Below, piece after piece: positions 21,956-49,054 of a stretch of 64,000 bases of DNA. The notes under the pieces are model-generated. The model was not told the origin of the DNA. It did not search any database and saw only the letters and a list, made by a program, of their open reading frames with translations. Positions within the stretch are counted from its first letter, which is position 1; each line of letters starts with the position of its first letter. The DNA is from Psychromonas ossibalaenae ATCC BAA-1528 (GTDB lineage Bacteria > Pseudomonadota > Gammaproteobacteria > Enterobacterales > Psychromonadaceae), in assembly GCF_000381745.1 (NCBI RefSeq), contig NZ_KB906993.1:1-64000 (forward strand), written 5' to 3'. The position numbers were made by a program, and so were the translations under genes.

Positions 21956-22273
21956 CCGGCACTGAGCATTTTCAATACTAGAGTTTTCTGTCTTTATTAT
22001 TCAACAAACAGACCCAACCTCCAAATTAAATAACAATTTTTAGCAACGTTCCTCATTAAACAAAAAACTTAATAAAAATCACCGCCGGCATGGATAGCCA
22101 GCCCAGTCTGCTGTGCAAAATGAACAGATAATCTTCACCTGTACCATAATCAGCTTTTCTGGGCATAGTAATGATTGAACATTGGGCCTGTTAAGTATTA
22201 TTATCTGCGCCACAGTCTCACAGAGACCTTGGGTTTAGAACAAAGAATAAATAGACAAAATATTGGAGTTTAT

Positions 22274-29940: not shown

Positions 29941-30077
29941 CTTTAATTATAAAGGGCAAATGTATTAACGCAAGTTATCTATTTTTGTTAAGATAAAAAT
30001 ATCCGTGTGCGTTTCCCGAAAACGTATAAACAGTTTAGATTTTATGGAATTTTCTTGTTTTCAAAGAGGTGAGCATT

Positions 30078-30215
30078 ATGGGAGCAGTCATAGGGTTATT
30101 GGTCTTGGCAGGCATCGCGTATTTGCTAAAGAAGAACACAGGGCTTCCCTTACATCAGTGGATTGCTAAGAAATATCAAGCGCACTTAAATGCGCGGCAT
30201 AAGCATAAAAAGTAG
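30078..30215 (+). CDS. Small single-helix membrane protein, 45 aa
   Basis: AGAGGTGA 6 nt before the ATG. The product has one hydrophobic segment (residues 3-18, AVIGLLVLAGIAYLLK) and a basic tail ending in HKHKK. It lies divergent to umuDC, 137 nt from the LexA box. A small peptide next to an SOS promoter recalls toxic or division-inhibiting SOS peptides, but nothing in its sequence proves such a role. It could also be a chance frame. Confidence 0.45.
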   Translation: MGAVIGLLVLAGIAYLLKKNTGLPLHQWIAKKYQAHLNARHKHKK

Positions 30216-30262
30216 AATAATCCGTGTTGAAAATACGCCGTTCATAAACGTCTGTACAGGGC

Positions 30263-31102
30263 TTAGCGGTATTTTTTCATCACCAGCACAGTTAATACAT
30301 CACGTATTCTGAAATATCGACGCTGCTTAAAATAGGACTCAAAATCTTTATCACCGGGCATAGGGTAGTACATATCTTTCTCATTACTGCTGTGGATTAG
30401 ATGCAGCTTAGGATCTTTTCCGTCGATCAACCGTTTTACCACCCGTCCAAGCAGTTTTGCTCCAATCACCGCGGTGTACATTAATACACTCTCCTGGGTG
30501 GCATTCGCTTTTAATGTAAAGGATCTGCGGGCTAATACTTCACCAGTGTCAAGACCTTCGTCTATCCAGTGAACTGTCACACCGCCTCTGTCACTGCCGT
30601 TGTTTAAAACCCAAAAATATGCCATCGCCCCTTTATAGGAGGGAAGCCAGCCGGGGTGAATATTTAATACGCCGGTTTTAGGAAGAGAGATTATCTCTTT
30701 TTTTTATATTTGTGAAAAATAGGCTGAAATCAGCAGATCAGGATGCAGTTGTTTAATAAATTTCCGGCAGGATTCATCATTAATATTTCCACAATGAAAA
30801 ACTGGGATATTATGATCAGCGGCAATCTTCCATGCCGGCTTTAAACGTTTTCGTAAAAATGGAAAAGTCAGTGTGACTAGATAACCCAGCACTTGAATGC
30901 CGCGCTGCCAAAGCAGCAGCCAGGCGAATTTCCATCCTACTTTTTTAAGATGACTGATGATACGGGTGCGCCCGCGAAGTGACAACTTGAGCGGCTGGGC
31001 TTTTACAACACCGACAATATTAATCTCAGGCATATTAAGTAACTTATTCATGATCACTGCGCTGCCAAGGTGGCCGGCTGTGTACAGAACTATCACATCC
31101 AT
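30263..31102 (-). pseudogene. Formyltransferase-family protein interrupted by one in-frame stop
   Basis: The two halves lie in the same frame: residues 1-132 (MDVIVLYTAGHLGSAVIMNKLL to LLISAYFSQI), then TAA at 30706-30704, then KKEIISLPKTGVLNIHPGWLPSYKGAMAYFWVLNNGSDRGGVTVHWIDEGLDTGEVLA to the end. The second half has the formyltransferase catalytic region (N-x-H-P-G-x-L-P ... G-x-T-V-H-x-I-D-E-G-x-D-T-G), with Asn, His and Asp present. Family members have Leu-Lys after the SQI, so TTA to TAA is the likely lesion. N-10-formyl-THF dependent formylation of a sugar amine or similar would have been the job. No start signal favours independent translation of the second half. Confidence 0.8.
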
Positions 31103-31689
31103 TTGTAAAAATTCCCTGTTGTTATATGAACTTAATTAAAGACAATTATATATTATAAAGCGTCATATAAGGAACCAGCAGCCTGCGCGGTGAGGATAAT
31201 CGCTAATAATACATGGATGGCAAAATCAACTGATGTTAGGAAAAGCATTGCTTTTGTTCGTCAACTAGATTGATGTTTTGTGAGCTGCATCCAGCCGCAT
31301 GGAGAGGTGGTCTTGTTGTTAAATAGCAGCAACAAGTCAATCATCAATTAAGCTTTTGCTATTTAATTGATAAAATTTGTTTTAGCTGAGTCATCTGAAA
31401 TAATAAAAGCCATTATAAAGCGATGCATAAGTTCAATAACCCTCCTGTCCCATCCCTTTTTGTGCTTAAACATTGAGTATGTTTTTAGTTGATTTCTCTA
31501 GAATAAAAACCACTTGTATAAAAAGTAAGTATAATTTCAACGAAATATTGTGGTTGCTTTTTTGTTAATAAATTCAGTGGGTTAAATTTTTTACCTGTGG
31601 GTTTGCTTATTGAAATAAAATAATAATAAATCAATGTATATGTGATACTGTGGTTAATTCGCGGTAGATAAAAAGACGGAGGTTTATAG
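31103..31689. promoter_or_regulatory. 587-bp leader/promoter region of the NRPS operon
   Basis: This AT-rich gap holds no gene I can support. Two inverted repeats stand out: CTTGTTG/CAACAAG around 31312-31336 and ATCAATTAA (31343-31351) with TTAATTGAT (31363-31371). They partly compete, because AAATAGC at 31321 can also pair with GCTATTT at 31358. A long structured leader is possible. The end carries GGAGGTTTATAG before the HAD gene. Confidence 0.45.
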
Positions 31690-32511
31690 ATGCAAGAGAC
31701 TAAAAATGAAATAAAAGCAGTTATTTCTGATTTGGATGGAACCCTGCTGAATCCTCAAGGAAAGATAACCAAAAGTACTCGGAATGTACTGAATCAGCTT
31801 AATTGTGACGGTGTAGAAGTTATTTTTGCTTCTGGGCGTCACCCAAAAGATATAAGCAGTTTAATTACCGGCTTAGACTTTGTTCCAACTATTATCGGCT
31901 GTAATGGCGCACTTGAAGTGTGCAGAGTACAGGGGAAATATAAAAAAAATATAGTGTTTAACAGCAGCATATATAAACAGCTTATTCAGTGTGCCGCGAG
32001 CTTAAATTTACATATTAGTGTTTTTGATTCTGCAGGCTGGAATGTTACTGAAGTTAATCACATGGTTACATCTTACTCAAGGCAGTTTAGGTTTCCATAT
32101 CAGGTAGTTGCTGGAAATGAACTCTTAGATTTAAGCGCAAACAAAATTCTAGTGTGGTCAGAAAGTAATATCGATTCCATTGAACAGACGTTAGTTAAGT
32201 TATTTTCACAAAGCTGTGAAATTAGCCGATCATCCGTTAATTCCCTTGAAATTTCCCCTTTGAATGTCACTAAAGCAAACACAATTGCAGAATGTCTTGC
32301 AGATCAAGGTATTAACTTTGAGAGAGAAGCCATTGCCTTTGGAGACGGTATGAATGATGAAGCAATGCTGGAGCAGGCTGCGATAGGTGTTGTTATGAAA
32401 AATGCGATGCCGGAATTATCAAATAGATTAACAAAGCCTATTTATACGAATAGTAATGCAGACGACGGCGTAGCTGATTATTTAATTGGTTATTTTGGTT
32501 TAGCACTTTGA
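31690..32511 (+). CDS. Cof-type HAD-IIB phosphatase
   Basis: 273 aa with a strong GGAGG 8 nt before the ATG. The HAD motifs are motif I ISDLDGTLLNPQGKIT (nucleophile Asp), motif II FASGRHPKDI, a type-IIB cap with NGALEV, the conserved Lys in LNVTKANTIAECL, and motif IV FGDGMNDEAMLEQAAIGVVM. Relatives dephosphorylate sugar phosphates, pyridoxal phosphate or thiamine-pathway intermediates. The NRPS gene starts 10 nt later, so the two are co-transcribed; it may remove phosphate from a precursor or product of the pathway, by inference only. Confidence 0.88.
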   Translation: MQETKNEIKAVISDLDGTLLNPQGKITKSTRNVLNQLNCDGVEVIFASGRHPKDISSLITGLDFVPTIIGCNGALEVCRVQGKYKKNIVFNSSIYKQLIQCAASLNLHISVFDSAGWNVTEVNHMVTSYSRQFRFPYQVVAGNELLDLSANKILVWSESNIDSIEQTLVKLFSQSCEISRSSVNSLEISPLNVTKANTIAECLADQGINFEREAIAFGDGMNDEAMLEQAAIGVVMKNAMPELSNRLTKPIYTNSNADDGVADYLIGYFGLAL

Positions 32512-32520
32512 GGAAAGAAA

Positions 32521-35500
32521 ATGAAAATATCAGCATCACCTTATGAAATGAATTTTTATGTTGAATCACTTCATGAAAATACAAATATGATTTCAAATTC
32601 ATACGTAACACTGAATATTTCCGGCAGTATTGATGAGAATGCTTTTACTGAGTCGCTAAAGGAGGCGTTTAGCTCAGACTGCTTCCATTACCAGTATACA
32701 TTTGAAAATGGCTCTCTCTATAAAGAATTAAATAAGCAGGATGTTGATGTCACGCAGCATGATTTTAGCTTATCAAAAGATAAAGAGAAGAACACTGCAC
32801 AAGTTTTAGAAGAGTGTTATTCGCAAAAAATAACGATTAATTCAAATCGCTTATTCCGCTTATGCATCTGTAAACTAAGTTCCGGAAATTTAAAAGTTAT
32901 TATTATGGTACATCATATAACATTAGATGGAAGCGGGTTTGTTATATTGCTGGATCGAATAAAATCTAAATATAAAAGCCTGGTATATGCTGATCAATAC
33001 GATCATGAAGTATCGAGCAGTAATCACTGTGTATCCTGGCCTTCTTATTCTCTGGAAAAAATTAAACAGGCAGCTGAAGTCTGGCGCAGTCATATATCGG
33101 AACAATCGCTTCCGGTAACTTTTTCCAGTGCCCAGCCTGCTGTAAAACGACATACTTCTACTTCATTTTTATCTCTGACAACAGAGCAAAGTGCAGAGGT
33201 GAAAAAATATTGCAGAAAGCATAAATTAACCCCAAATATATTTTTTAAAAGCGTCTATGCACTTTTGGCGGGCCGTCTTTCAAATCAGGTATTAGTCGGT
33301 GTTATATCGCCGATGGATATGAGAGAAAAAAACTCTAGAAATACGATGGGCTGTTTTGTTAATACTTGTTTAGATGTTTATGACTTGTCTCCCCAGCATT
33401 CCATTAACGAATATTTTTCAAAAATAAGGACATTTCATAGTGAAACTAAAGCATATAAAGGACTGGCGTATAGAGATTTAATTAATGAACTAAATAAAAC
33501 CGCTGAAGACAGTATGTCACAAGTAGCCAACATAAGCTTTGGTTCAACAATTGGTATCAATGATACCTATAACCTTGATGAAGATATCACATTTAAATTT
33601 AACTATGAGCTGATGGAACTGAATGCAGATCTGCAGCTTTTATTCTGTATGTCATCGGATCGTTGTTTTAATTTCAGACTGGACTACGTTGAGTCAATGT
33701 TTACCAGCGGTGTGCTGGATGCATTTCTCGAGCGCTTTGAGAAGATCCTGACTCATTTGACAAGTACTGACACTAATTCCTGTCCGCTTAAGTCGCTCCC
33801 TATTTTACTGGAAAATGAACTTTCATTTTACAACAGCATCAATCAAACAGAGCTGCCCGCTGCAAACCTGTCACTTGCTCAGATTTTTCATCAATGGGTA
33901 GAAACTAAGCCTGATTCAGCCGCACTTATTGATGCTGCCAATAAACGCGAACTAACCTACTACGAGCTGTATCAAAATGTGGTGCAGTATATTGAATATC
34001 TTAAAACATTAAAAATAACAGAGGCTGATAAAAGCTGTACGGTTGCCATTAATCTGGATTGTTTGACAGAAACGGTCACTGCAGTTTTAGCAACGCAGTA
34101 TATGGGGATCGCATTTACCTGTATCGATACAGCAGCATCTTTACAGAGAAAAAAAGAGATATTAGCTCAGGTATCTCCCGCTGCGGTACTTGAAAACAGT
34201 CTTGATACGCAGAAACTGCAGGATAAAACAGATAACCTGTATTGTCCTTGTCAGGTAACAGACACTACGATCAGTCAATTGATCTTTACCTCCGGTACAA
34301 CGGGAAAACCTAAAGGGGTCGCACTTTCTCATAGAGCTTTAGTCAGCACTATTTTTAAAGGAACCCGCATCCCTTCTGGTAAGAGAGTGCTGTATTCTGC
34401 CAACGAAGCATTCGATGCGGCAAGTCTGCAGCTGTGGACTGCTTTTGTTAATGGCGAAACATTAGTGGTACCGAAGCGCGGCGTTATTGCGAACCCAGAT
34501 GAGTTAAAAGGGATTATTCAAGAGTATAATATTGATCATCTGTTTTTGACTACCGGTTTATTTGAAACTTACTTTAGTTCAAATAAGGCTGAAATATTTA
34601 CCGGCGTAGAAACATTAGTTTTTGGAGGAGACAGCGTTTCGAATAAGGCAGTAGCTAACGCGCTGAAGACAGGCATTACTAATGTAATTAATATTTACGG
34701 CCCGACAGAAACATCTATTTATGCAGCGTCATTAAAATGCCGACCGGAACACCTTACTCTTGCACAAATCCCGATCGGCACTCCTAGTGACAACGCACAA
34801 ATTTATCTTGTTGATGAAGCTGGAAAGATTGTCCCCCATGGCGCCGCGGGCCAGGTACTGATCGGAGGGCCGGGGTTAGCAAACGGTTATTATGGACAAC
34901 AGGAGTTAACTGAAGAAAAGTTTATCAGATGCACTATAAAAGAGCTCGGTTTAAAAGATATTCGGCTATATCAGACTGGTGACTATGCATACTGGGGGCG
35001 CGATAGAAACTTGTATTTTAACGGCAGAAAAGATGAACAGATCAAGTTAAGAGGATACCGCATTGAACTGGGGGATATACGTAATGCTATGGAACGGCTC
35101 GACGGTATTGATATCGCGACAGTGATGTTAAATAAAAAATCGGGAACAAAAGCACTCATAGGATATTACGTATCTGCGAAAGATATTAGTCCGGAGACCG
35201 TGAAAGCACACCTTATCAAGCAGCTTCCGTCATACATGGTTCCAACTTATATTATTCCACTGGAAGTGATGCCGTTAAACTGCAATGGAAAAATTGATCG
35301 GCGCGCACTGCCGCTGCCGGCCGCAGATCTGCAGAGCTGTGATCAGGAGTTGACCGATATTCAGAAACAGCTGCTTGCTAAAGCATGTGTTGTACTTGAA
35401 CTGCCAAGTTTATCGATTAATGATAACTTTTTGGAAATGGGAGGAGACTCTATTTCGACAATATCATTATCAGTCGAGATGGAGTCTATCGGACTGCGCT

Positions 35501-38259
35501 TAAGCACATCTGATATAATGAAACATAAAGTTTTCTCTACAATGTCACAATATATACAGCAGGATAAGCAAAGAGAAATTATTCGCGGAGAGAGCACGGG
35601 AAGCTTTGATCTGCTGCCTGCACAAAAATGGTTCTTTGAGCAGAAATTTGCTCATCCACATCACTTCAATCAGGCGGTAACACTTAAATTTAATCACAGT
35701 GTGTCCCTGGCTAAACTTAGAAATGCGCTTAAACAACTCACCGATCACCATGATATATTCCGAGTCAGCTATCACAACAGCAGCTCAACAGATAAACAGG
35801 TTTTTAGTGATTCTAATACAGAGAACTTTACCTTTGAACAGAAAACTTTTGATGATACATCTCAATTAGATACTCACCTTGCATCTATCAATCAAAGCTT
35901 TAATTTTGATTCAGGCGAAATGTTTAAAGTGATGCTGTATAGCTGTGGTAAAGATAAGTCACAGTATCTTTACCTTTGCGCCCATCATCTGATTGTTGAC
36001 GGGGTTTCATGGCGGATCATTATCAATGACCTGCGTATACTGTATAACGATAATCCAGATACCAGACTGAGCGAATTTTCGAATACAAAGGTCTATGCTG
36101 AAGGGTTGAAAACGACCTTAAGTGACGTGAGCTTATCGGAAACAAATTACTGGTTAAAAGAGACAGATGCAGTTGACCGCTATCAGCCGTCTGCACCAGC
36201 ATCTATGGAATCAGTAACACTTGATGAAACAGTTAGCAGACAGTTATTAAGTTCAGCAAACGAAAAATATAGAACTTCGGTTAATGAATTGTTAGTTGCC
36301 GCATTAGTAAAGGTCATTCCTGTTATAGATCCCTTTGTAAATATCCTGTTAGAAGGGCACGGACGGCAGAATATTAACCCGGAAATTGTAATTGATTCAA
36401 CGGTAGGGTGGTTCACCAGTATATTTCCGTTACGTATCGCCAGCAATATGGAGTCTATGAATCAAAATATAAAACGTATTAAAGAGCAGATCAGGATGCT
36501 GCCTCAGAAAGGTGAAAATTACTTAAATTTAGCTTACGGCCATTCTGATACAGACATAAGAAAGCAGTTACAGAACCGTTTAATGTACCCAGTTAGTTTT
36601 AATTATTTAGGCCGTTTTGAAAGTAAAGGTCGTGATGATGACTTGTGGACCATGGTACAAAATAACAATGCACATTTAGTGAGTGCGGAAAATAAAGTAC
36701 TGCGGGAGATTGATGTAAACTGCTGGGTTAGTGATGAGCGTTTAACTGTGCAGATCGAAGTGACCAATAAAAATATTGATCCAAAAAAACTGCTGAAGAA
36801 CTTTGCAGATGAAATTCGAGCAGTTGTATCTCACTGCACTAATACAAATACTATTAGTGCCCTGACTCCTTCGGATGTTGCAAATGTAGAGATAACACAG
36901 CCGCAGATAGAAGAGCTGGAAAGTCAAATAGGAGTCCTTGATACAATATATCCTGCAACAGACTTTCAGCGCGAGCTCATGTACTTTAACCGTATGAATC
37001 GTGATTATCAGATAGATCAGTTGTACTTCAAATTAGAAGGTGATTTAAATATTGAGTGCTTTCAGCAGGCATGGGATACAGCTTTGAATCGTCACGATAT
37101 TTTAAGAGCTGCATTTTGGGATAAAGGACGGCTTGGAAAACCGTTAGTGGTTGTACCTCGTCAAGTAAGCATGCTTATTCAGCTTGAAGACTGGCGTGAA
37201 ACAAGCTCTGCAAACTGGCCAGAAAAAATATTGGAGCGTTTAATCTCTGAGCGTAAAAAAGGATTTGATCTGCTGTCTCCACCATTGATGAAGTTATGTT
37301 TAGCCGAACTTGGTGAGCAGCAGTACTACATGATATTTACATTCAACCATATATTATTTGACGGCTGGTCAATGCAGATATTCCTGTCGGAGATAATGCG
37401 GGATTACGAGGTCTTGATACGAAAGGATAAGCTGGATGTTAAGTCATTTACTTTTAGTGCTTTTTCTCAATACCTTAAAGAATCTCAACTTGAACCGCAA
37501 GCTGAGGTATTCTGGCAGAATTACCTTTATGGAGCCCCTAAAAACTTACGTGTTCCCCTGGACTTTCCTAAAATTGAGCATAATAAATTACGTATTCAGG
37601 GTGAGACTGTTCACCTTAGCCGGGCACAAACTGAGAAAATTTCAGCAAGAGCAAAAGAGCTTGAGGTAACGGTTAATCAATATTGTCAACTTTGCTGGGG
37701 CCATGCGTTAAGTAATATGACAGGTAGCAGAGATGTGGTCTTTGGGACAACATTAACCAAACGGCCAGCTGAAATCGACTCAGTTACTGACCTTGTTGGA
37801 CTTTTTGTGGCAACACCGCCTTTACGGGTTAAAGTAACAGGAAGTACAAAATCTGCATTAGCACAGATTGTCGACTCAAGCTCAGAGAGAATGGAATATG
37901 CGTTTTATGATCTCAATGATTATGATCATAAATGGCAGCCTACCGCACCATTCGGCACGCTGTTTGTATTTGAAAACTATCCAGAGCAGGAAACAAATAG
38001 TGAAAACAGAAGTTTACATATAGATCACATAGGAACAACGAGTGGTACTAACCATCAGATAGTTGTGTGTGTGTTTCCTGGAGAGAAAATGGGTTTTAAC
38101 CTTTTCTATGACTGTACTGAGCTTAGCCAGAACAAAGCAGTTGAAACTGCGAATCAATTTCAATTGTCACTGATGACTTTGTGTACTGATAATGAACTTG
38201 ATCAGGAGACGACGCTAGTAAAAAAACGTCAATCTGCTTTTAGTTCTGCAGTAAATTAA
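32521..38259 (+). CDS. Non-ribosomal peptide synthetase, C-A-PCP-E-C
   Basis: 1912 aa, preceded by GAGGAAAG. Domains in order: condensation 1 (~1-430; HHITLDG at 131); adenylation (~450-950; FTSGTTGKPKG at 589, YGPTE at 726, TGD at 819, NGKIDRRALP); carrier (FLEMGGDSI, phosphopantetheine Ser 977); epimerization (~1025-1460; HHLIVDG at 1155, EGHGR, VGWFTSIFPL, NYLGRF); condensation 2 (~1480-1900; NHILFDG at 1609, the second catalytic His kept, the first replaced by Asn). There is no thioesterase and no second A-PCP. Reading the binding-pocket positions by eye gives about D-A-L-F-V-G-I-I-Y, suggesting a hydrophobic amino acid, made D by the E domain. The last C domain may pass it to a free amine. 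Confidence 0.92.
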   Translation: MKISASPYEMNFYVESLHENTNMISNSYVTLNISGSIDENAFTESLKEAFSSDCFHYQYTFENGSLYKELNKQDVDVTQHDFSLSKDKEKNTAQVLEECYSQKITINSNRLFRLCICKLSSGNLKVIIMVHHITLDGSGFVILLDRIKSKYKSLVYADQYDHEVSSSNHCVSWPSYSLEKIKQAAEVWRSHISEQSLPVTFSSAQPAVKRHTSTSFLSLTTEQSAEVKKYCRKHKLTPNIFFKSVYALLAGRLSNQVLVGVISPMDMREKNSRNTMGCFVNTCLDVYDLSPQHSINEYFSKIRTFHSETKAYKGLAYRDLINELNKTAEDSMSQVANISFGSTIGINDTYNLDEDITFKFNYELMELNADLQLLFCMSSDRCFNFRLDYVESMFTSGVLDAFLERFEKILTHLTSTDTNSCPLKSLPILLENELSFYNSINQTELPAANLSLAQIFHQWVETKPDSAALIDAANKRELTYYELYQNVVQYIEYLKTLKITEADKSCTVAINLDCLTETVTAVLATQYMGIAFTCIDTAASLQRKKEILAQVSPAAVLENSLDTQKLQDKTDNLYCPCQVTDTTISQLIFTSGTTGKPKGVALSHRALVSTIFKGTRIPSGKRVLYSANEAFDAASLQLWTAFVNGETLVVPKRGVIANPDELKGIIQEYNIDHLFLTTGLFETYFSSNKAEIFTGVETLVFGGDSVSNKAVANALKTGITNVINIYGPTETSIYAASLKCRPEHLTLAQIPIGTPSDNAQIYLVDEAGKIVPHGAAGQVLIGGPGLANGYYGQQELTEEKFIRCTIKELGLKDIRLYQTGDYAYWGRDRNLYFNGRKDEQIKLRGYRIELGDIRNAMERLDGIDIATVMLNKKSGTKALIGYYVSAKDISPETVKAHLIKQLPSYMVPTYIIPLEVMPLNCNGKIDRRALPLPAADLQSCDQELTDIQKQLLAKACVVLELPSLSINDNFLEMGGDSISTISLSVEMESIGLRLSTSDIMKHKVFSTMSQYIQQDKQREIIRGESTGSFDLLPAQKWFFEQKFAHPHHFNQAVTLKFNHSVSLAKLRNALKQLTDHHDIFRVSYHNSSSTDKQVFSDSNTENFTFEQKTFDDTSQLDTHLASINQSFNFDSGEMFKVMLYSCGKDKSQYLYLCAHHLIVDGVSWRIIINDLRILYNDNPDTRLSEFSNTKVYAEGLKTTLSDVSLSETNYWLKETDAVDRYQPSAPASMESVTLDETVSRQLLSSANEKYRTSVNELLVAALVKVIPVIDPFVNILLEGHGRQNINPEIVIDSTVGWFTSIFPLRIASNMESMNQNIKRIKEQIRMLPQKGENYLNLAYGHSDTDIRKQLQNRLMYPVSFNYLGRFESKGRDDDLWTMVQNNNAHLVSAENKVLREIDVNCWVSDERLTVQIEVTNKNIDPKKLLKNFADEIRAVVSHCTNTNTISALTPSDVANVEITQPQIEELESQIGVLDTIYPATDFQRELMYFNRMNRDYQIDQLYFKLEGDLNIECFQQAWDTALNRHDILRAAFWDKGRLGKPLVVVPRQVSMLIQLEDWRETSSANWPEKILERLISERKKGFDLLSPPLMKLCLAELGEQQYYMIFTFNHILFDGWSMQIFLSEIMRDYEVLIRKDKLDVKSFTFSAFSQYLKESQLEPQAEVFWQNYLYGAPKNLRVPLDFPKIEHNKLRIQGETVHLSRAQTEKISARAKELEVTVNQYCQLCWGHALSNMTGSRDVVFGTTLTKRPAEIDSVTDLVGLFVATPPLRVKVTGSTKSALAQIVDSSSERMEYAFYDLNDYDHKWQPTAPFGTLFVFENYPEQETNSENRSLHIDHIGTTSGTNHQIVVCVFPGEKMGFNLFYDCTELSQNKAVETANQFQLSLMTLCTDNELDQETTLVKKRQSAFSSAVN

Positions 38260-38275
38260 TATGTAAGTAAAATAG

Positions 38276-38322
38276 GGCCAGTTTTTGTCTTCAGCCATTA
38301 GAGCAGAAGACAATAACTGGCC
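38276..38322 (+). other. Hairpin between the NRPS and methyltransferase genes
   Basis: GGCCAGT (38276-38282) pairs with ACTGGCC (38316-38322), and GTCTTC with GAAGAC inside, making a two-part stem. No T-run follows, so it may attenuate or protect the transcript rather than end it. Confidence 0.5.
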
Positions 38323-38365
38323 TTCGTATTATTATGATAATCTCCCTTAGGAAAAGTAAATAAAT

Positions 38366-39070
38366 ATGAAATCACTTATGTATTCAGAGCATGCGGAAAA
38401 ATATGATTCTGCCGTACAAGATAATATTTATAATGCCTGTCTAGAAAGGCCTTCATTACAGGCTATGCTGAATGATCTTGCCGGATTGAATGTATTAGAT
38501 TTAGGCTGCGGATCCGGCGTTTATACACAGTTATTAATTGAACAGGGGGCTGCTGAGATAACCTGTATCGATGTCTCTGAGAAAATGATTCAGATAGTGG
38601 ACAGTAAATTTGGCAGCAGAGTGTCATCTTACTCACAAGACTTATCTATTGGTCTTCCACAAGAGGAGCCAAATAGTAAAGACGTTATTATTTGCCCGCT
38701 GGTGATTCATTACATTGAAGATCTGTGTGTTTTGTTCCAAGCAGTAAACCGCGTTCTGAAAGCCGGAGGATACATGGTCTTTTCTACTCATCATCCATTA
38801 GCCGATTTTGAATGTTCGCGTTCAGGTAATTACTTTGAACGTGAATTAATTACTGATGTATGGGATACGGTTGGTGAGCCCGTTGAAGTCGTATTTTACC
38901 GCCGTTCTTTAACAGAAATCATGGATGCAGTGACAAAAAATGGGCTGGCGGTAACTCAATTGTCTGAAGGTAAAGTTGCAGATAAAGTGAAAGAAATCTC
39001 AATGGAACGCTACAATTATTTATCTAAGAACCCGAATTTTATCTTTATAAAATGTCAGAAACTTTGTTAA
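38366..39070 (+). CDS. Class I SAM-dependent methyltransferase of the NRPS operon
   Basis: 234 aa. The SAM-binding motif I is NVLDLGCGSGVYTQLL (about residues 39-54), motif II ITCIDVSEKMIQIV, and later VIICPLVIHYIEDL and FSTHHPLADFECS. It belongs to the ubiquinone/small-molecule methyltransferase fold group (Methyltransf_11/25). CCCTTAGGAAAAG precedes the ATG. It lies 106 nt behind the NRPS gene on the same strand with only a non-terminator-like hairpin between, so a tailoring role on the NRPS product is the natural inference. N- versus O-methylation cannot be told. Confidence 0.88.
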   Translation: MKSLMYSEHAEKYDSAVQDNIYNACLERPSLQAMLNDLAGLNVLDLGCGSGVYTQLLIEQGAAEITCIDVSEKMIQIVDSKFGSRVSSYSQDLSIGLPQEEPNSKDVIICPLVIHYIEDLCVLFQAVNRVLKAGGYMVFSTHHPLADFECSRSGNYFERELITDVWDTVGEPVEVVFYRRSLTEIMDAVTKNGLAVTQLSEGKVADKVKEISMERYNYLSKNPNFIFIKCQKLC

Positions 39071-39124
39071 CAAATCGAGTGCATAAAGCCGCTATATTTA
39101 GGGCAGTGTACTGGTTTGATAAAT

Positions 39125-39145
39125 CAGCGGGTGTATTACCCGCTG
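39125..39145. terminator. Hairpin between convergent genes
   Basis: CAGCGGGT (39125-39132) and ACCCGCTG (39138-39145) form an 8-bp GC-rich stem in the convergent gap between the methyltransferase and the MarR gene. T-runs are absent on both sides, so termination is only suggested. Confidence 0.45.
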
Positions 39146-39163
39146 CATAAGTAGACGGCTTAA

Positions 39164-39646
39164 TTACAAAGACTCATCGGCTTGAATTTGTCCTACCAGT
39201 AATACTGGTGCAGCATCTAGTTCGTCGGCATCCATCATGGATGCAATTCGCTCTACGGCGGAGAGCAGCTGGCTTTGTTCCCACTCTTCAAGATTTTGAT
39301 AGCGCTTGATAAAATGCTCTTGAAGTGGTTTCGGCGAGTCGCTTAATAAGGTTTGGCCTGCTTCACTTAATGATAAATGCACTTTGCGTTTGTCAGTTTT
39401 ACTGCGCGTTCTAATGACTAAATTACGGCTTTCAAGTCTATCGAGAATCGTTGTTACGGTTGCCGCGCTTAAAGTAATTTCTTGCGCAATCTGTTTTGCC
39501 AGCGGTGCATCAAGCTGCGCTATTTTGCGCATTACCATCAGCTGCGGCCCGGTTAATCCCGAGTCTTTATTTAGCTGTCGAGAATGTATACTGATAGCTC
39601 GGATCACACGGCGCAGTGAAATTAATAGTTGTTCGTACTTTTCCAT
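39164..39646 (-). CDS. MarR-family transcriptional regulator
   Basis: 160 aa. The winged-helix core is visible: LTGPQLMVMRKIAQLDAPLAKQIAQEITLSAATVTTILDRLESRNLVIRTRSKTDKRKVHLSLSEAGQTLL, including the D-x-R-x4-L-T-x-x-G wing (KTDKRKVHLSLSEAG). A typical MarR dimer represses a nearby gene until a phenolic or other ligand binds. It lies between the NRPS operon (convergent) and the BCCT gene (same strand, upstream), so its target could be either or elsewhere. GAGGGAAT lies before the ATG. Confidence 0.9.
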   Translation of the reverse strand: MEKYEQLLISLRRVIRAISIHSRQLNKDSGLTGPQLMVMRKIAQLDAPLAKQIAQEITLSAATVTTILDRLESRNLVIRTRSKTDKRKVHLSLSEAGQTLLSDSPKPLQEHFIKRYQNLEEWEQSQLLSAVERIASMMDADELDAAPVLLVGQIQADESL

Positions 39647-39705
39647 AATTCCCTCATTATTTTTTTGCGTACCATAACAGAAATATTCATAAGACTCATG
39701 CGCAA

Positions 39706-39745
39706 AATAAAAAAAAAACAGAATAACGCCGGGCGATATTCTGTT
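39706..39745 (-). terminator. Rho-independent terminator after the BCCT gene
   Basis: On the minus strand AACAGAATA (from 39745) pairs with TATTCTGTT (ending 39717) around a GC-rich loop and is followed by a run of about ten T. It ends the bet/BCCT transcript before marR. Confidence 0.9.
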
Positions 39746-39818
39746 TTCTGGTTTATGTGCAAAATTAAAGGTTTGTGAGACAGAAAGTACTGCTCACTGT
39801 TCCTTTGTTAATTGAATA

Positions 39819-41036
39819 TCAGTTTGCTAATTCAATCTTAGTGAAGTCGATTTTGTTCGCTTTTGGTGAACGTTCAATATCAGCTACTTTACGATAATGA
39901 GTCAGTAGAATGTAAGCAAAGCATCCTAAAATTAATCCTATCGCTAATGCGCCAACCCACTGAATTTGTAAAAAGTCTAATTTGAACAGCAGTGTTAGTC
40001 CGCTTAACAGAACAATATTACCGATAACATAACGTGCTTTGCCGAAACGCTGCACCGTCAGATTTAAATTATCGGTATACAGGCGAACCAGTGAATCAAG
40101 TGAATTGATAACAAATGTAACACCAACGATCACCATCGCCAGGTTATAAAATCCTGCTGTCGGGATGGCATTAGCGCTGTAGTAATAAAGTACGCTGAAC
40201 CAGACTGCGATCGGAATAGACGGGAATACCATCATTGCCGCTAATACTTGATAGGTTCTCATGCCGCCTACAAAACGTGCGGTAAATTGACCTATCATAA
40301 TGCTCCAGGCAAACCACCAGAACAGGTAAAACTCATGGTAGTCATTAAGCGGTAATACAAAGCGGTGCAGATTGGTGAAGTAATCACCTAATAAAGCGAA
40401 AGTCGTAAAGAACTCTCCAACACTTGAGTTATCAGTTAAAAATGCACCTGCCCACATTATTGCTATTAAGGCTAAAAATAACCAGCTGCTGCCCAGGCTT
40501 AAAATTTTGACGTAACGGATATTGGTACTTGAATACACGGCGGTGGCAATAACCAGAAATACAATTAAGTAAAAACTGCCGACCAGGGTTTCACCGTCAC
40601 CTAAGCCGGGTAAATACCAGGGCAGGTTAGTTAGCAGCAGGTAGGCAGTAAAGGCACAGGTACCGATAATAACTAAGTTATTAATAAACTTAATTATTGA
40701 AATTTCAAAAAACTTAACTCTTGGTTCAATAACACAAAAGTAGAAACAGGTTAAAAAGTAAAATGCCCAGATAAAGAAAGCCCAGAAACCAAACTCAATG
40801 GCTAAAGGATTACTAAAACCATATTCAGGGCTGCTGGCAATATCAGCGTAACCGGCAAATTCGGTTAGCGGGAACATGATTAAACCGACATCTAAACCTG
40901 AGGTAAAGAGAATAGCGATAAAGGTAAAGTTACGTACAGGCGTGACACCAATACACTTCATGTTACCCCAACGATAAATAACAAACGCAATTGCGGCAAA
41001 AGTAAATAAAATGCCGATTGACAGCCAAATAGTCAT
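39819..41036 (-). CDS. Short BCCT-family choline/betaine transporter
   Basis: 405 aa from the ATG at 41036 (MTIWLSIGILFTFAAIAF), with GGAGG 8 nt upstream; the frame opens 11 codons earlier without a better signal. About eleven to twelve membrane helices. The BCCT signature region FYLFWWFAWSIMIGQFTARFVGGMRTYQV (Trp-rich TM8, then the amphipathic helix) is present, along with PEYGFSNPLAIEFGFWAFFIWAFYF. Typical BCCT proteins are 500-670 aa; this one is a short form without the long termini that sense osmolarity. Position downstream of betIBA makes choline the likely substrate, entering to be oxidised to betaine. Confidence 0.85.
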   Translation of the reverse strand: MTIWLSIGILFTFAAIAFVIYRWGNMKCIGVTPVRNFTFIAILFTSGLDVGLIMFPLTEFAGYADIASSPEYGFSNPLAIEFGFWAFFIWAFYFLTCFYFCVIEPRVKFFEISIIKFINNLVIIGTCAFTAYLLLTNLPWYLPGLGDGETLVGSFYLIVFLVIATAVYSSTNIRYVKILSLGSSWLFLALIAIMWAGAFLTDNSSVGEFFTTFALLGDYFTNLHRFVLPLNDYHEFYLFWWFAWSIMIGQFTARFVGGMRTYQVLAAMMVFPSIPIAVWFSVLYYYSANAIPTAGFYNLAMVIVGVTFVINSLDSLVRLYTDNLNLTVQRFGKARYVIGNIVLLSGLTLLFKLDFLQIQWVGALAIGLILGCFAYILLTHYRKVADIERSPKANKIDFTKIELAN

Positions 41037-41221
41037 TATTTGGCCTCCAGGTGGATATTGTTGACACACATAATTAAAATTCCTTGTGTTGTTTTATAAA
41101 ACGCTGCTGGGCAGTTTTTAAAGGCTTAAGTATCGTGCTGACGATAGTTAAACCCTGAAAAAATGAACGCAGCAATATAGGCCATTTGCGTATTCCGCTT
41201 AGGCTGGCCCTGACCTCTTTG

Positions 41222-41252
41222 CTGTTATTGACAGATTTACAGTCAATAACAG
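41222..41252 (-). terminator. Hairpin after betA
   Basis: CTGTTATTGAC (41222-41232) and GTCAATAACAG (41242-41252) are perfect 11-bp complements, 21 nt past the betA stop. There is no long T-run, so read-through into the BCCT gene is possible. Confidence 0.55.
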
Positions 41253-41273
41253 TAAATTGATGCCCTGTATAAA

Positions 41274-42965
41274 CTAGCCGGCTTGGCGTTTAGGGGCTTG
41301 TAAGCGTTGACTGGTCTGCCAGTCATCCGCCACAGTCACTTCAGCCGTGCTGGGTGCAAGAGGTGTTTTACCTAAAATAATATCGGCGGCACGCTCTGCT
41401 GTCATAATGGTCGGTGAATTCAGATTGCCGTTAGGAATTGTCGGGAATATTGATGAATCAACAACTCGAAGACCTTCGATACCATGAACTTTAGTTTCAG
41501 AGTTCACTACCGACATTGCGTCTTCGCCCATTCTGCATGAGCATGAAGGGTGATAGGCACTTTCAACGGAACTTCTGACAAAGCTGTCGATTTCCTGATC
41601 AGTTTGTACCGCGAGTCCCGGCTGAATCTCTTCGCCGCGATATTCATCTAAGCCGGGCTGGTTGATAATTTCCCGGGTTAATCGCACACAGGCACGAAAA
41701 CCTTCAATGTCATCCTGGTGTGATAAATAGTTAAATTGAATTTGCGGTGCCGTACGGGCATTGCTTGATACAACTTTAACCCTGCCGCGGCTTTTAGGTT
41801 TGTTATGACCAATATGAACTTGGAAACCATGACCTGCAAATGCTTCTTTACCATCGTAACGCATGGCCGCAGGTAGAAAGTGATACTGAAGATCCGGCCA
41901 TTCTAAACCCGCTTTAGAACGAATAAAGCCGCATGACTCAAAATGATTAGTAGCACCTAAACCGGATTTATTTAATATCCAGCGTGTACCAATAAATAAT
42001 TTGTTTAACGGGTCAATTTTGCCGTTAAGCGATATCGGTTTTAAACATTTAAACTGAAAGTAAAACTCAAGGTGGTCCTGCAGGTTTTCACCGACACCGG
42101 GTAATTCATGGACCTGCTCTATACCGGCTTGTGCTAATGTGTCTGCAGCGCCGATACCCGACAGCTGCAGAATATGCGGGGAGCCGATAGAGCCTGCAGA
42201 CAGCAGGACTTCTTTATTACAGCGCAGCTCCGTTAACTGACCTTTAGACTCGTAAGAAACACCGACAGCTGTTTTACCTTCCAGCAGCACTTTGTGAACC
42301 AGTGCGTGAGTGATTACGGTGAGATTGTCGCGTTTCATGGCCGGTCTCAAGTAGGCATTCGCAGTAGACCAGCGCACACCGTTTTTGACAGTCATATGCA
42401 TCGGGCCGAAACCTTCCTGCTGCCCGGCATTGTAATCTGCTGTTGCTAAATAACCGGCATCAACACCGGCATTAACAAAGGCTTGATATAACGGGTTTTT
42501 CATATTGTTGCCGTTATTGACAGCAAGAGGACCAGACTCTCCGCGGTAGTCATTACCGCCAAATGACCAGGTTTCGGCTTTTTTGAAGTAGGGTAAACAG
42601 TGTGCATAATCCCAGTTTTGTGCCCCGGCCTGCTGCCATTCATCAAAATCACGTGCATGGCCTCGTACATAGACCATACCGTTAATAGATGATGAACCGC
42701 CTAACACTTTACCGCGCGGACAATGCATACGGCGGTTATCTAAAAACGGCTCAGCTTCAGTTTCAAACTGCCAGGCGTATTTTTTTGTATTCATCGGTAT
42801 TGATAATGCGGTCGGCATTTGAATAAAAATACTCTTATCGCTGCCGCCGGTTTCCAGCAGCAGTACCTTATTGCCGGAATCAGCTGACAAGCGGTTTGCC
42901 AGTACACAGCCCGCACTTCCTGCGCCTACAATGATGTAGTCATATTGTGCTTTAGTCATGTTCAT
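41274..42965 (-). CDS. betA: Choline dehydrogenase (GMC oxidoreductase)
   Basis: 563 aa, the usual BetA length. The FAD-binding motif is [20 protein letters not shown], followed by the GMC signatures [19 protein letters not shown] and [17 protein letters not shown]. The active-site His region is [13 protein letters not shown], and the C-terminal [21 protein letters not shown] is family-typical. The enzyme oxidises choline to betaine aldehyde at the membrane and can carry the aldehyde on to betaine. The start is 4 nt after the betB stop, in the operon betI-betB-betA. Confidence 0.94.
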
Positions 42966-42968
42966 TCC

Positions 42969-44435
42969 TTAAAAGGGACTTTCAAGCGGCATCATGCCGA
43001 CATATACCGCTTTAATCTGGGTATAGGCTTTTAATGTTTCACTGCCGTTTTCGCGGCCGATACCGGACATTTTATAGCCGCCGACCGGCATTTCAGCAGG
43101 TGATGCGCCAAAGGCATTAATCCAGCAGATGCCGGCCTGAAGCTGATGTATCACCCGGTGAGCACGGGTAATGTCTTGAGTAAACACAGCTGCTGCTAAT
43201 CCTAAGCGGCTGTCATTTGCGCGGCGGATAACTTCCTCTTCATCGCTGAAAGTCAGTACCGACATAACCGGGCCGAATATTTCTTCTTTAGCTATGGTCA
43301 TTTGGTCAGTGCAGCCGGTGAAAATAGTCGGCGCAACAAAGAAACCATGTGGTGAATTTTCAGGCTGCAGTGCTTTACCGCCTGTGAGTAGAGTTGCGCC
43401 TTGTGCTTTCCCAATCTCGATGTAGTCGAGCACTTTCTGCTGATGAGACTTTGAAATCAAAGCCCCAAAATTAGTGTCCGTATTCATCGGATCGCCGCAG
43501 ATAATATTCTGCTCGGTACGCTCAACTAGACGTTTAATAAAACGAGGATAAATATCCTTCTGAACAAACACACGAGTACCGTTTGTACAGACTTCGCCCT
43601 GGGTATAGAAATTACCTAACATGGCCGCAGATACCGCATTTTCTATATCGGCATCATTAAAAATAATCAACGGTGACTTACCGCCTAGTTCCATGGTGAC
43701 TTCTTTTAATGAACCGGCAGCCGCCGCCATCACTTTTTGGCCGGTTGTTACTTCACCGGTAAAAGAGATTTTGGCAATATCTTCATGGCCGGTTAACCAG
43801 GCGCCGACTCTGCCGTCGCCTTGGACCACGTTAAACACACCGTTTGGCACACCAGCCAGAGTGAAAATTTCTGCTAAACGCATTGCGCCGCTCGGCGTTT
43901 CCTCTGACGGCTTAAAAATCATCACATTGCCGCAGGCAAGAGCCGGGGCCGCTTTCCAGCAGGCAATCTGTAGTGGATAATTCCATGCTCCAATGCCTGC
44001 ACAAATACCTAATGGTTCGCGGCGGGTGTAATAAAAATCATCACCGACCTGCTGCTGATTACCTTCAATACTCGGGGCAAGTCCTGCAAAAAACTCAATT
44101 GAATCGGCGCCCGTTACAACATCAACCACTGATGCTTCCTGCCATGGTTTACCGGTATCAAGCACTTCGCCAGCGGCAAGTTCATCATTGTGCTCACGCA
44201 GTAATGAAGCAGCCTTGAGCAGAATGCGGCTGCGTTCAATGGCAGTCATTTTTGACCATGTGGCAAAACCAGATTTTGCACTGTTGATCGCAGCCTGCTG
44301 AACTGCTTCATCTGCTCTTTCAACTAAGTAGCTGACTTGACCTGTTGCCGGGTTAATGACTTCAAATGTTTCGCCCGTGCCGTTAGGCATATATTGACCG
44401 TGAACATAATTTTGATAAACGACTAATGTCGGCAT
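42969..44435 (-). CDS. betB: Betaine aldehyde dehydrogenase
   Basis: A 488-aa NAD(P)-dependent aldehyde dehydrogenase. The nucleotide site [12 protein letters not shown], the catalytic Glu motif [12 protein letters not shown] and the catalytic Cys in [12 protein letters not shown] are in place, and the sequence ends in the BetB-like [28 protein letters not shown]. It converts betaine aldehyde to glycine betaine, the osmo- and cryoprotectant. Its start overlaps the betI end by 13 nt, implying translational coupling. Confidence 0.95.
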
Positions 44436-45031
44436 TGATTTTCTCCATACTGCAGAATAACTGTTTCAATAAAGGCTTTAGACAACATTTGTGCCTGTTT
44501 AAAATCCTGCTCTGGTGTTGAACTAAGCGCACTGCGAAGCCAGAAACCGTCAATCACAGCGGCGGTTTGTTTAGCTGCATTAACCGCTTCAGTATCCGGC
44601 AGCAGCTGTTTAAAAGAAAAAAGCAGGTTGCTGTACAAGCGTTGACTATTGATATATTGAAGTCTTGCCAGTCCCGGATCATGCATCGCCTGGGACCAGA
44701 AACTTAACCATGTCTTAGTGACTGCATTTGAACGCTGCAGTTCGGTAAAATTTGCTTCAACAATCATAGACAGCCTTGCAATAGGAGACAGTGTTTTACC
44801 TGACGTCCTTATTAATAAGGCCTGCTTTAATTCATCAAGAAGATATTTAAGTGTAGCTTCAATTAAGCCTTGTTTGCCGCCAAAGTAGTGGCTGATGATC
44901 CCCGATGACATACCCGCCATACCACTAATCGTATTAATTGTGGTGTGCTGTAATCCATGGCGTTCGACTGATATCAGCGTGGCATCAATGAGCTGCTGTT
45001 GTCGGACATGTTTCATCGCCGGTCTAGGCAT
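44423..45031 (-). CDS. betI: BetI, TetR-family choline-responsive repressor
   Basis: 202 aa from the ATG at 45031 ([27 protein letters not shown]), preceded by AAGGAAG; the frame extends to 45079, but that would place the start inside the operator. The TetR helix-turn-helix is [32 protein letters not shown] (about residues 27-58). BetI represses the bet operon until choline is present. It is the first gene of betIBA and lies directly behind the palindromic operator. Confidence 0.93.
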
Positions 45032-45059
45032 AAATAACTTCCTTTTATTCTTGAATAAC

Positions 45060-45087
45060 GTTATTAATTGAACGCTCAATTAATAAC
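45060..45087. promoter_or_regulatory. BetI operator
   Basis: GTTATTAATTGA (45060-45071) and TCAATTAATAAC (45076-45087) are perfect 12-bp arms around ACGC. The core ATTGAACG-x-TCAAT matches the BetI-binding palindrome known from E. coli and Vibrio bet promoters. It lies 28 nt before betI. Confidence 0.88.
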
Positions 45088-45134
45088 AATCCTAATGATT
45101 AGTGCTCTAACTATCAAGTGTTAATTATATTGCT

Positions 45135-45146
45135 CTCAATATTGAG
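45135..45146. promoter_or_regulatory. Second palindrome in the bet promoter region
   Basis: CTCAATATTGAG is a perfect 12-bp palindrome 48 nt beyond the main BetI operator. It keeps the TCAAT/ATTGA half-sites without the spacer, so it could be a second, weaker regulatory site. Confidence 0.4.
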
Positions 45147-45254
45147 TAGTAATCAACTTGCTTGGAAGTGGAGTAAATAAAGAGTAATATACTGCTGAAA
45201 ACGCACTGATTCATAGGGTTTGGGTGGTTTCTGTAGAAGTGGGAATAACGTAAC

Positions 45255-45285
45255 AGTTACAGCTAAAATTATTTTAGCTGTAACT
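45255..45285. other. 14-bp perfect hairpin in the betI-acyltransferase gap
   Basis: AGTTACAGCTAAAA (45255-45268) and TTTTAGCTGTAACT (45272-45285) form a perfect 14-bp stem with a 3-nt loop. It lies inside a 77-codon open frame (45220-45453) that I do not support as a gene. Apart from this hairpin I see nothing named in 45150-45571. Confidence 0.55.
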
Positions 45286-45571
45286 ATCTTCTCACTGGTA
45301 GGTAAGCATACGATATCAACAATAGCCTTTGTTTCAGGAAAACTGCTTGAGGGCGCTTTGGAAAAGAGAGAAGAAAGGCAGAAAAACTCACCTTATCCTC
45401 GGAGGCAGGCCATACAGATTCGACACCGCATTGAACCAATGGCAGTGCCTTAAATTCAATGAATCACTTCCAGTAATTCGACTATCACAGCAGCATAAAC
45501 TACTGTGAATTTATTAGGCTTAACTGTGAAACAGCGCAAGAAAATATTTATTATGTACGAAGGAGTTAGGA

Positions 45572-47359
45572 TTGATAGGGAACACATTTAGTTGTCAAAA
45601 AGAGTTACCGATAATGCCGGTACCAGACTTGAATATAACATGCGGTAAACTTATTGAATGGGCAGAGCCACTATTAACGGAAGAAGAGTCAATTAAGACC
45701 AGAGAAGTAATTGAGCTGTTTTTGCAGCCTGGTGGTGAAGGAGAAAAATTACAAAACGAGCTGATTGAATGGGCTCAGCCTCCCGCAGTTTTGAACTGGT
45801 TTGCGCCCGTTTGGCGCGATTTCTATTTGTCATGCCCCAAATCACTGGTGATTAACAGTAACGTATTTTATTACCTAAAAAGCAAGCTTGATGAAAATAC
45901 CCGCTCACAGGCAAGTATCGCAGCTGCACTTATCAGTAGTGTTTATGATTTTATTGCTTTGATTGATACAAAAGAACTGACGCCTGATATGCAGAAAGAC
46001 GTACCGCTATGTATGAATCAGTATCGGAGCCTTTTTTCCTCAACAAGAATACCGCGCCAAGGGACAGATGACTTCAAAGTTTCATCAAACAGAAAGCATA
46101 TAGTGGTTATGCATAATCAACGTATCTACAAACTCACTATTATTGATGAAAATGGCGCTATTCGCTCTTATTCTGCCATTGAATTTGAGTTAAATTGTAT
46201 TCTTTCTCCCTCAGAAAAAGGACAGAATTTAGGCCTGCTTAGTACTATGCCTCGAGACCAATGGGCAAAGAGTCGGGCTGATCTGCTTGAGATCTCGACA
46301 AATAATATACAGGCAATTCGCACGCTGGAAGATGCATCTTTTGTGTTATGCCTCGACGAAAAAAGCCCTGTAGAAATTACCGATGTCTCAAAACAGCTAC
46401 TTCACGGGTCGGGTCAGGATCGATTTTTTGATAAGTCGCTGCAGTTTATCGTTTTTAAAAACGGCAAGACCGGCATCAATTTTGAGCATACCGGCGTAGA
46501 CGGCTCAGTTATGCTGCGCATGGTTGGTCATATATATGACACCATTGATCAAGTTTCTTTTGCTGAAAGGAACGTTTCTACTGAGACAAAGCAGGGACTT
46601 TCCCTAAGTCTCGAAGAAATTGAATTTGACTTAGATGAAACGCTGAAGCAGACAGTTCATACAGCAAAAGATTCGTTTAAGCAGCATACTGAAAATACCC
46701 AGACCAGGGTTTTAAATTTCACCGCCTTTGGTAAAAACCAGATCAAGCAGTTTGGGGTCAGCCCTGATGCCTTTGTTCAGTTAGCCCTGCAGCTGGCTGA
46801 GCATAAGCTTTATGGAAAGTGCTACAGTGCCTATGAAGCAGTGATGACCCGAACGTTTGTTGACGGGCGTATCGATGCATTACATACCGTTTCCCCCGAG
46901 TCGATCCGTTTTATTGAGAATATAGGCGACGCAAGCTGCAGTACTCAGGCTAAAATTGATTCACTTATTAGTGCCTCTCAAAAACATGTCGAAAGGGCCG
47001 GGGAGTGCAGGTCTGGAGCAGGTATTTATGCGCATTTTCTTGCACTGAAATATCGTCATCAGGTTGCGGGAGATAAGATAGGCATTAGTACGCTCCCTGA
47101 AATATTTACAGATAAAGGATACCAGGCTCTCAGTCACAGTGTTGTTTGTACCAGTACCACGTCAGACTACGGCGTAGAGCTGGCAGGTTACGGGCCGATT
47201 GTTGATGACGGCTACGGGATCCGCTACTTTGTACGTAATGACTCGATCTGTTTTAATATGACCAGCCGAAGTATTATGCAGGACAAACTTGAGCAGATGC
47301 ACAGTTATATCGAACAGTCGCTGCTGGAAATGGCAGATTTGATGCGCCTGCGTAAATAA
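45572..47359 (+). CDS. Choline/carnitine O-acyltransferase family protein
   Basis: 595 aa from a TTG at 45572 that has AAGGAG 6 nt upstream; an ATG at 45614 is the alternative. The family signatures are ordered correctly: N-terminal LPIMPVPDLNITCGKLIEWAEPLLTEEE (the xLPxLPVPxL start), the catalytic-His motif INFEHTGVDG, CoA/carnitine-site YEAVMTRTFVDGRIDALHTVSPES, and SDYGVELAGYGPIVDDGYGIRYFV. There is no signal or organelle peptide. These enzymes move acyl groups between CoA and carnitine or choline and are rare in bacteria. It is transcribed away from betI, which suggests a link to choline or carnitine use, by inference. Confidence 0.85.
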   Translation: MIGNTFSCQKELPIMPVPDLNITCGKLIEWAEPLLTEEESIKTREVIELFLQPGGEGEKLQNELIEWAQPPAVLNWFAPVWRDFYLSCPKSLVINSNVFYYLKSKLDENTRSQASIAAALISSVYDFIALIDTKELTPDMQKDVPLCMNQYRSLFSSTRIPRQGTDDFKVSSNRKHIVVMHNQRIYKLTIIDENGAIRSYSAIEFELNCILSPSEKGQNLGLLSTMPRDQWAKSRADLLEISTNNIQAIRTLEDASFVLCLDEKSPVEITDVSKQLLHGSGQDRFFDKSLQFIVFKNGKTGINFEHTGVDGSVMLRMVGHIYDTIDQVSFAERNVSTETKQGLSLSLEEIEFDLDETLKQTVHTAKDSFKQHTENTQTRVLNFTAFGKNQIKQFGVSPDAFVQLALQLAEHKLYGKCYSAYEAVMTRTFVDGRIDALHTVSPESIRFIENIGDASCSTQAKIDSLISASQKHVERAGECRSGAGIYAHFLALKYRHQVAGDKIGISTLPEIFTDKGYQALSHSVVCTSTTSDYGVELAGYGPIVDDGYGIRYFVRNDSICFNMTSRSIMQDKLEQMHSYIEQSLLEMADLMRLRK

Positions 47360-48722: not shown

Positions 48723-49054
48723 TCGGGTGTACTCTCATCATTATTATTGTTTTGAACAGCTTTGCTCTTAGATGCTCGCTTACGCTGTGCGCCTTTCAGC
48801 TTGGCCAGCTGTATAGGAGAAATAGGCTGTTCAGCTAAGAAAAGGGAAAGCTGATCCAACAGGTCGAGTCCCTGCATTACCGCAATCATAGTTTCTAACT
48901 TTGTCCTTCCTGCCTCAACATTAACTATGGTGTTCTTGGATAGACCTACCTTTAATGCAAGGGTTTCCTGAGAAAGGTTGGCATTTAATCGCGCCTGTTT
49001 TAGGCGCAGCCCCAATGTTTCCGCTATCATTTTCGGACTGTCGTTAATTTCCAT
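48716..49054 (-). CDS. hipB: HipB-type antitoxin, XRE helix-turn-helix
   Basis: 112 aa. The XRE domain is GLRLKQARLNANLSQETLALKVGLSKNTIVNVEAGRTKLETMIAVMQGL (about residues 14-62). The C-terminal tail is basic (KGAQRKRASKSKAVQ) and then Asn/Asp-rich (NNNNDES), longer than in E. coli HipB (88 aa). It would bind HipA and autorepress the operon. GGAG lies before the ATG. Confidence 0.9.
   Translation of the reverse strand: MEINDSPKMIAETLGLRLKQARLNANLSQETLALKVGLSKNTIVNVEAGRTKLETMIAVMQGLDLLDQLSLFLAEQPISPIQLAKLKGAQRKRASKSKAVQNNNNDESTPEW

Follow-up and report, generated by a model that had tools for sequence, protein, structure and literature searches.

In VibH of vibriobactin biosynthesis, and in similar stand-alone amide synthases, a condensation (C) domain works with a soluble amine as the acceptor; VibH itself is a separate protein that takes its donor from an aryl carrier. 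Nonribosomal peptide synthetases (NRPSs) offer further precedents. In the available passages of the respective reports, the stand-alone Cterm domain Kj12C of the rhabdopeptide/xenortide enzymes hands its chain to a free amine (PMC6195595), and the glidonin domain C13 (of GdnB) condenses free putrescine and terminates the line (PMC10587159). A protein of the order C-A-T-E-C (A, adenylation; T, carrier or PCP; E, epimerization) is described, in the excerpted report, alongside other NRPS proteins of nocobactin-like clusters in Nocardia (PMC7413640). Here we analyse a 64,000-nucleotide stretch of DNA (the window) from the marine bacterium Psychromonas ossibalaenae, which lies on contig C27 of a draft assembly of 5,204,311 bases in 107 contigs with a stated completeness of 100. 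It carries a gene for a HAD phosphatase followed by a gene for an NRPS of this same domain order, C1-A-T-E-C2.

Our leading but still tentative proposal, in which belief and doubt are close to balanced, is that the two genes form a laterally acquired cassette, in which a HAD phosphatase accompanies a self-contained one-module NRPS and condensation itself releases the product. We infer that the A domain, as predicted, would load a residue with an aliphatic or other hydrophobic side chain onto T, that C1 would N-acylate this residue, that E would convert the T-bound residue to the D form and that C2, a DCL-type domain with no A-T downstream, would move the N-acyl-D-aminoacyl group off T and onto an amine or alcohol in solution. 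By removing a phosphate, the phosphatase may, at a guess, make or unmask this nucleophile or else the donor of the acyl group. The product may be a small amide built from one D-amino acid. A more specific version, which we regard as quite unlikely, is a minimal two-protein pathway in which a DCL domain has turned into an off-loader for a soluble nucleophile unmasked by the HAD enzyme, so that the product would belong to a new class of N-acyl-D-aminoacyl amides or esters.

For release by a terminal C domain, Kj12C and glidonin C13 are precedents, as far as the available passages describe them. Like the Kj12A/B/C enzymes, the Psychromonas protein is a single-module NRPS for a predicted hydrophobic residue with a terminal C domain, for which we propose release to a free amine. 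Unlike here, Kj12C is a separate protein, Kj12B has a methyltransferase domain and several modules cooperate; an E domain, present in our NRPS, is described in none of the Kj12 passages considered. Glidonin C13 releases its chain onto a free diamine, as may C2, but the accessible text places a partial A domain, a T domain and thioesterase (TE) domains behind C13, which stabilise it at the end of a 12-residue line. The Nocardia protein, likened to ours by domain order alone, also has no A-T or TE after its last C domain in the excerpts considered. It belongs, however, to a siderophore cluster with several NRPS proteins, whereas the protein described here is the sole NRPS found in its genome. 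If C2 releases its product unaided, the pathway would be among the smallest NRPS pathways with epimerisation. It would then also be a natural test of a D-selective condensation domain accepting a free nucleophile, useful for engineering amide-terminated products. If the gene is a relic, it would be one more assembly line that has broken up, which is nothing out of the ordinary.

The initial annotation of this DNA had described a compact operon of a HAD phosphatase, a C-A-PCP-E-C NRPS and a methyltransferase. Pfam and NCBIfam place all three open reading frames (ORFs) in these families, at the coordinates and on the strand given there (Table 1). In the NRPS, Pfam matches three Condensation stretches, AMP-binding and PP-binding, and the second of the three condensation-type stretches is the E domain (TIGR01720, 83.6 bits against a cut-off of 74.2) that sits in the E clade, bearing out the order that had been claimed. 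A, T and C domains with their core motifs thus lie within one ORF, which is open over 1912 codons and keeps the catalytic motifs. We re-parsed the protein with our own profiles, the seeds of which included window sequences; the independent evidence is that of Pfam and NCBIfam. The protein was also said to lack a thioesterase, and indeed no TE model matched the NRPS, which stops 18-20 residues past C2. C2 is therefore the last domain, with neither TE nor A-T behind it. Pfam found no methyltransferase domain inside the ORF either. The specificity code of the A domain, read by alignment to a GrsA ruler, is all-hydrophobic between D235 and K517. The nearest codes in our own set, at six of ten positions, are that of a bacillomycin module and DAFFLGVTYK; with low confidence, the predicted substrate is an aliphatic or aromatic residue.

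Table 1. Positions in the window of the cassette, its domains and the features around it.
Feature	Position	Strand	Basis
HAD-IIB (Cof-type) phosphatase	31690..32511	+	PF08282 (Hydrolase_3) 171 bits; TIGR00099 147 bits, over cut-off
NRPS, 1912 aa, C1-A-T-E-C2, without TE	32521..38259	+	ORF call, Pfam, own profiles
C1, starter-like condensation domain at the N terminus; highly divergent, with HHITLDG intact	32557..33768	+	PF00668 110.8 bits; trees; AlphaFold
A domain, code DALFVGIIYK, hydrophobic pocket	33955..35124	+	TIGR01733 280.5 bits, below 317.4 cut-off
T (PCP) domain, GGDS phosphopantetheine site	35368..35556	+	PF00550 39.4 bits; motif by reading
E domain, HHLIVDG	35596..36930	+	own E profile 430.9 bits (residues 1026-1470); TIGR01720; E clade, support 100
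C2, DCL-type condensation domain at the end of the protein; NHILFDG	36943..38202	+	PF00668 203 bits; DCL set, support 97
Class-I SAM methyltransferase	38366..39070	+	Pfam class-I methyltransferase models
Stem-loop, candidate end of transcription unit, no T tail	38275..38323	+	minimum free energy (MFE) z-score -5.96
7,965-bp stretch, against 391 bp of unrelated sequence in sister species G002	31161..39125		flank alignment

The subtypes of the C domains were assigned from trees that contained no Cterm sequence. In a first tree, built from 96 domains whose labels follow from their context, the E domains form one clade (support 100), and C2 falls in a set (support 97) with 18 DCL, 11 N-terminal and two last-domain rows beside it. 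In a more careful tree of 37 rows, C2 joins 14 DCL rows and one LCL row (97/98). Holding C2 with the LCL domains is rejected (p-AU 0.0003), while holding it with the DCL domains is not (p 0.211). C2 follows the E domain directly in cis. This order fits a review, in the part considered here, according to which a DCL domain always lies downstream of an E domain (PMC11546977). The subtype phylogeny that had been suggested as a check thus places C2 with domains that take a D-aminoacyl donor (DCL).

For C1, the fit to a starter domain is weak. Rausch et al. (PMC1894796) describe starter C domains, in the excerpt considered, as standing first in the line and resembling other C domains little; C1 is the first domain of the line, and by 'starter-like', a label of our own, we mean domains that are N-terminal and score low against the profiles. 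C1 groups with eight N-terminal domains in the 96-domain tree (support 95) and with three of those eight in the careful tree (99/98), its neighbours in both builds being the N-terminal C domains of large NRPSs. When the nearest domains were removed, it grouped with other N-terminal starter-like domains (support 90; wider group 78) in a quick and weaker tree. Its best non-self relative scores 63.7 bits at 23% identity, and 102 plasmid records matched, with 19-23% identity among the matches listed. AlphaFold models of C1 (pLDDT 81) and C2 show the C-domain fold. Since Foldseek placed C domains of more than one type next to them, the fold is not informative on subtype, and comparison with solved structures failed to separate the C-domain subtypes. 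The match of C1 to structure 1l5a, which we take to be VibH, reached an E value of only 0.012.

Several observations speak against the proposed release by C2. The usual acceptor of DCL domains is an aminoacyl-PCP. In the HHxxxDG motif of C2, Asn replaces the first His while the second is kept; this second His and the Asp are invariant across our alignments. The strongly conserved positions kept (32 of 47 in C2, 64 of 98 in A and 16 of 48 in C1 when measured against LCL domains) are in each domain fewer than in all references, which keep at least 80% for C2 and at least 82% for A, and E keeps fewer than 55 of 56 references. Such divergence of A, C1, C2 and E could be decay. The branch that leads to C1 is long, and all three of its builds gave long-branch warnings. 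In the AlphaFold model of the C2 piece, a low-confidence helix behind the domain (residues 436-451, pLDDT about 45) could be a docking tail for a missing partner. Finally, the cassette contains neither an amine-making gene nor a transporter gene, the latter as already remarked in the initial annotation.

These points bear on the chief rival of release by C2, which is a split or decayed assembly line. Here, C2 should feed a downstream A-T(-TE) subunit that is gone or hidden in a gap of the assembly, so that the gene is a relic or has an unseen partner. Reference subunits exist that end in a C domain and have the next A-T on a separate protein (in our own parse, the bacillomycin A and B proteins end in C), and in the available part of the Nocardia report the C-A-T-E-C proteins occur in clusters with further NRPS genes (PMC7413640). 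A, C1 and C2 have diverged to an unusual degree, which points the same way, as does the draft state of the genome with its 107 contigs. On the other hand, the long ORF and its catalytic motifs are intact, the locus lies mid-contig with conserved synteny resuming downstream, and no other C domain or NRPS-type A domain turned up in the assembly, of stated completeness 100. We consider a split or decayed line somewhat unlikely.

The genome searches behind this statement covered Condensation, PP-binding and AA-adenyl matches, and an adjacent or trans-acting second module had been named as a finding that would overturn the initial annotation. The three Condensation matches all lie within this ORF, which makes it the only NRPS found. 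Of the 11 PP-binding matches, C4 has one, a single frame on C36 (2762 aa, with seven tandem carrier domains by eye) has seven, C46, a contig that by eye resembles an aryl-polyene-type cluster, has two, and the NRPS has one. Among ten AA-adenyl matches, the NRPS is the best (280.5 bits), followed at 166.5 bits by a 1150-aa frame on C65 that reads as an Aas-like transporter-acyltransferase-ligase fusion; the remaining adenylation-type matches score lower and have the shape of acyl-CoA or acyl-ACP ligases. No A-T partner for C2 was found in the ORF, the cassette or the genome. Nor did any match in this genome complete a second module in trans. The lack of an MbtH gene, reported before for the locus, holds genome-wide (0 matches). 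The reported absence of a phosphopantetheinyl transferase (PPTase) is correct for the locus but not for the genome, which has one Sfp-type PPTase (272-aa frame, contig C9). As it is the only one found, the carriers of fatty-acid, polyketide-type and NRPS synthesis probably all depend on it.

With one carrier and two condensation domains per protein, the NRPS could also be used as a dimer. In this scenario, C2 (or C1) of one enzyme copy would link the D-aminoacyl-T of one copy with the aminoacyl-T of another to a dipeptide or diketopiperazine, which leaves by cyclisation. Rhabdopeptide single-module subunits are used iteratively, according to the passages considered (PMC6195595). However, a DCL acceptor in trans requires docking, and the domains with which C1 groups are starter-like and not of the elongating kind. 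We regard a dimer as improbable.

Lateral acquisition, the other part of our preferred cassette model, is addressed by the distribution of the two genes. The NRPS query found one of 24 genomes of the genus at 1e-100, namely its own, and none of the 23 congeners. At the reporting limit of 1e-150 and with two candidates scored per genome, 12 of 394 genomes of the order sample (best other match 549.8 bits, 28% identity) and nine of 369 of the class sample (621.7 bits, 30%) matched, both counts including its own; the samples overlap in some genomes. The other matches lie in frames of 1,370 to 12,077 aa, mostly large NRPSs. A scan of genome contigs with the NRPS gave five generic NRPS loci at 24-30%, and 1986 plasmid records matched the query, with 26-28% among the matches listed. 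The HAD query found 16 of 384 order genomes including its own at 1e-30, the best relatives being 31-34% identical. As judged from sequence comparison, both HAD and NRPS appear to be without an ortholog in the genomes sampled. The failure of the initial annotation to recognise a known pathway stands as far as our sequence and literature searches go: a narrow query found no paper that pairs a HAD phosphatase with an NRPS, and of nine papers listed for Psychromonas and NRPS, none names both in its title.

In the sister species G002, the 7,965-bp stretch is replaced by 391 bp of unrelated sequence, with aligned flanks on both sides (window 30269-31160 at 87% and 39126-45999 at 89%). This empty site was seen in one of the nine congeners compared; in the other eight, the MarR side is conserved within the stretch compared and the formyltransferase does not adjoin it. 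The G002 locus alone fits an insertion in P. ossibalaenae as well as a loss in the sister. A gain is favoured because the cassette is absent from the other 22 congeners. Third-position GC content (GC3) is 0.296 in HAD and 0.355 in the NRPS, below the mean of 31 other window ORFs (0.395, sd 0.05) but within their range, and a repeat scan found no convincing flanking repeats.

Next to this site, a formyltransferase-type gene (window 30263-31102, minus strand) has one in-frame stop and is intact in the sister species. A block of short ORFs beside it (30040-30244) has a 79% copy at positions 1787-1991 of locus L126, just upstream of the sister's unlinked methyltransferase. Because of this copy, the formyltransferase neighbourhood may be prone to rearrangement.

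The description of a compact operon is supported for the first two genes and doubtful for the third. The HAD gene is the first of the two-gene unit, its stop lying 9 bp upstream of the NRPS start, and by eye a purine-rich ribosome-binding stretch precedes each gene. The methyltransferase follows after a gap of 106 bp, in which a strong stem-loop is predicted (38275-38323; over 38256-38370, none of 200 shuffles folded as low). Our terminator scan did not list this stem-loop; neither the promoter nor the terminator scan rose above chance (21 sites where 24.9 were expected, and 5 where 5.8 were). The history of the methyltransferase also differs. G002, which has no such NRPS, carries an 82% identical copy on another contig (C4), and the two align in DNA over the gene only (window 38352-39073, 82.6%). 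Homologs occur in 18 of 384 order genomes including its own (17 of 383 others) at 1e-50 and in 619 plasmid records. We inspected 14 of these loci (four plasmid records and 10 of the 17 other genomes), and none has a condensation domain near the methyltransferase within the stretches covered, which at two of the loci reach no further than 2.0 and 0.6 kb to one side. A HAD-type frame (55 bits) lies about 3 kb from the methyltransferase at locus L131, and an AMP-ligase-like frame at the far edge of locus L106.

Together with the stem-loop, this history at other loci leads us to read the likely unit as HAD phosphatase and NRPS without the methyltransferase, which is probably a bystander outside the pathway. 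The alternative is a three-gene pathway whose product is later methylated, as had been suggested initially. The three genes are adjacent on the same strand, and the methyltransferase lies inside the stretch that is absent from the sister's locus. Against the suggested methylation stand the sister's copy, the homologs in other genomes, the 14 inspected loci and the hairpin in the gap, and we give the three-gene pathway little credence.

Elsewhere in the window, a HipA-like kinase gene (47406-49054, minus strand; PF07804, 166 bits) and an adjacent HTH_3 gene have the layout of a hipBA-type toxin-antitoxin pair. A choline/carnitine O-acyltransferase (45572-47359, plus strand; PF00755, 551 bits) is encoded near betaine genes, and a 555-aa protein (22175-23842, plus strand) gave only a partial Hsp70-type match of 68.5 bits.

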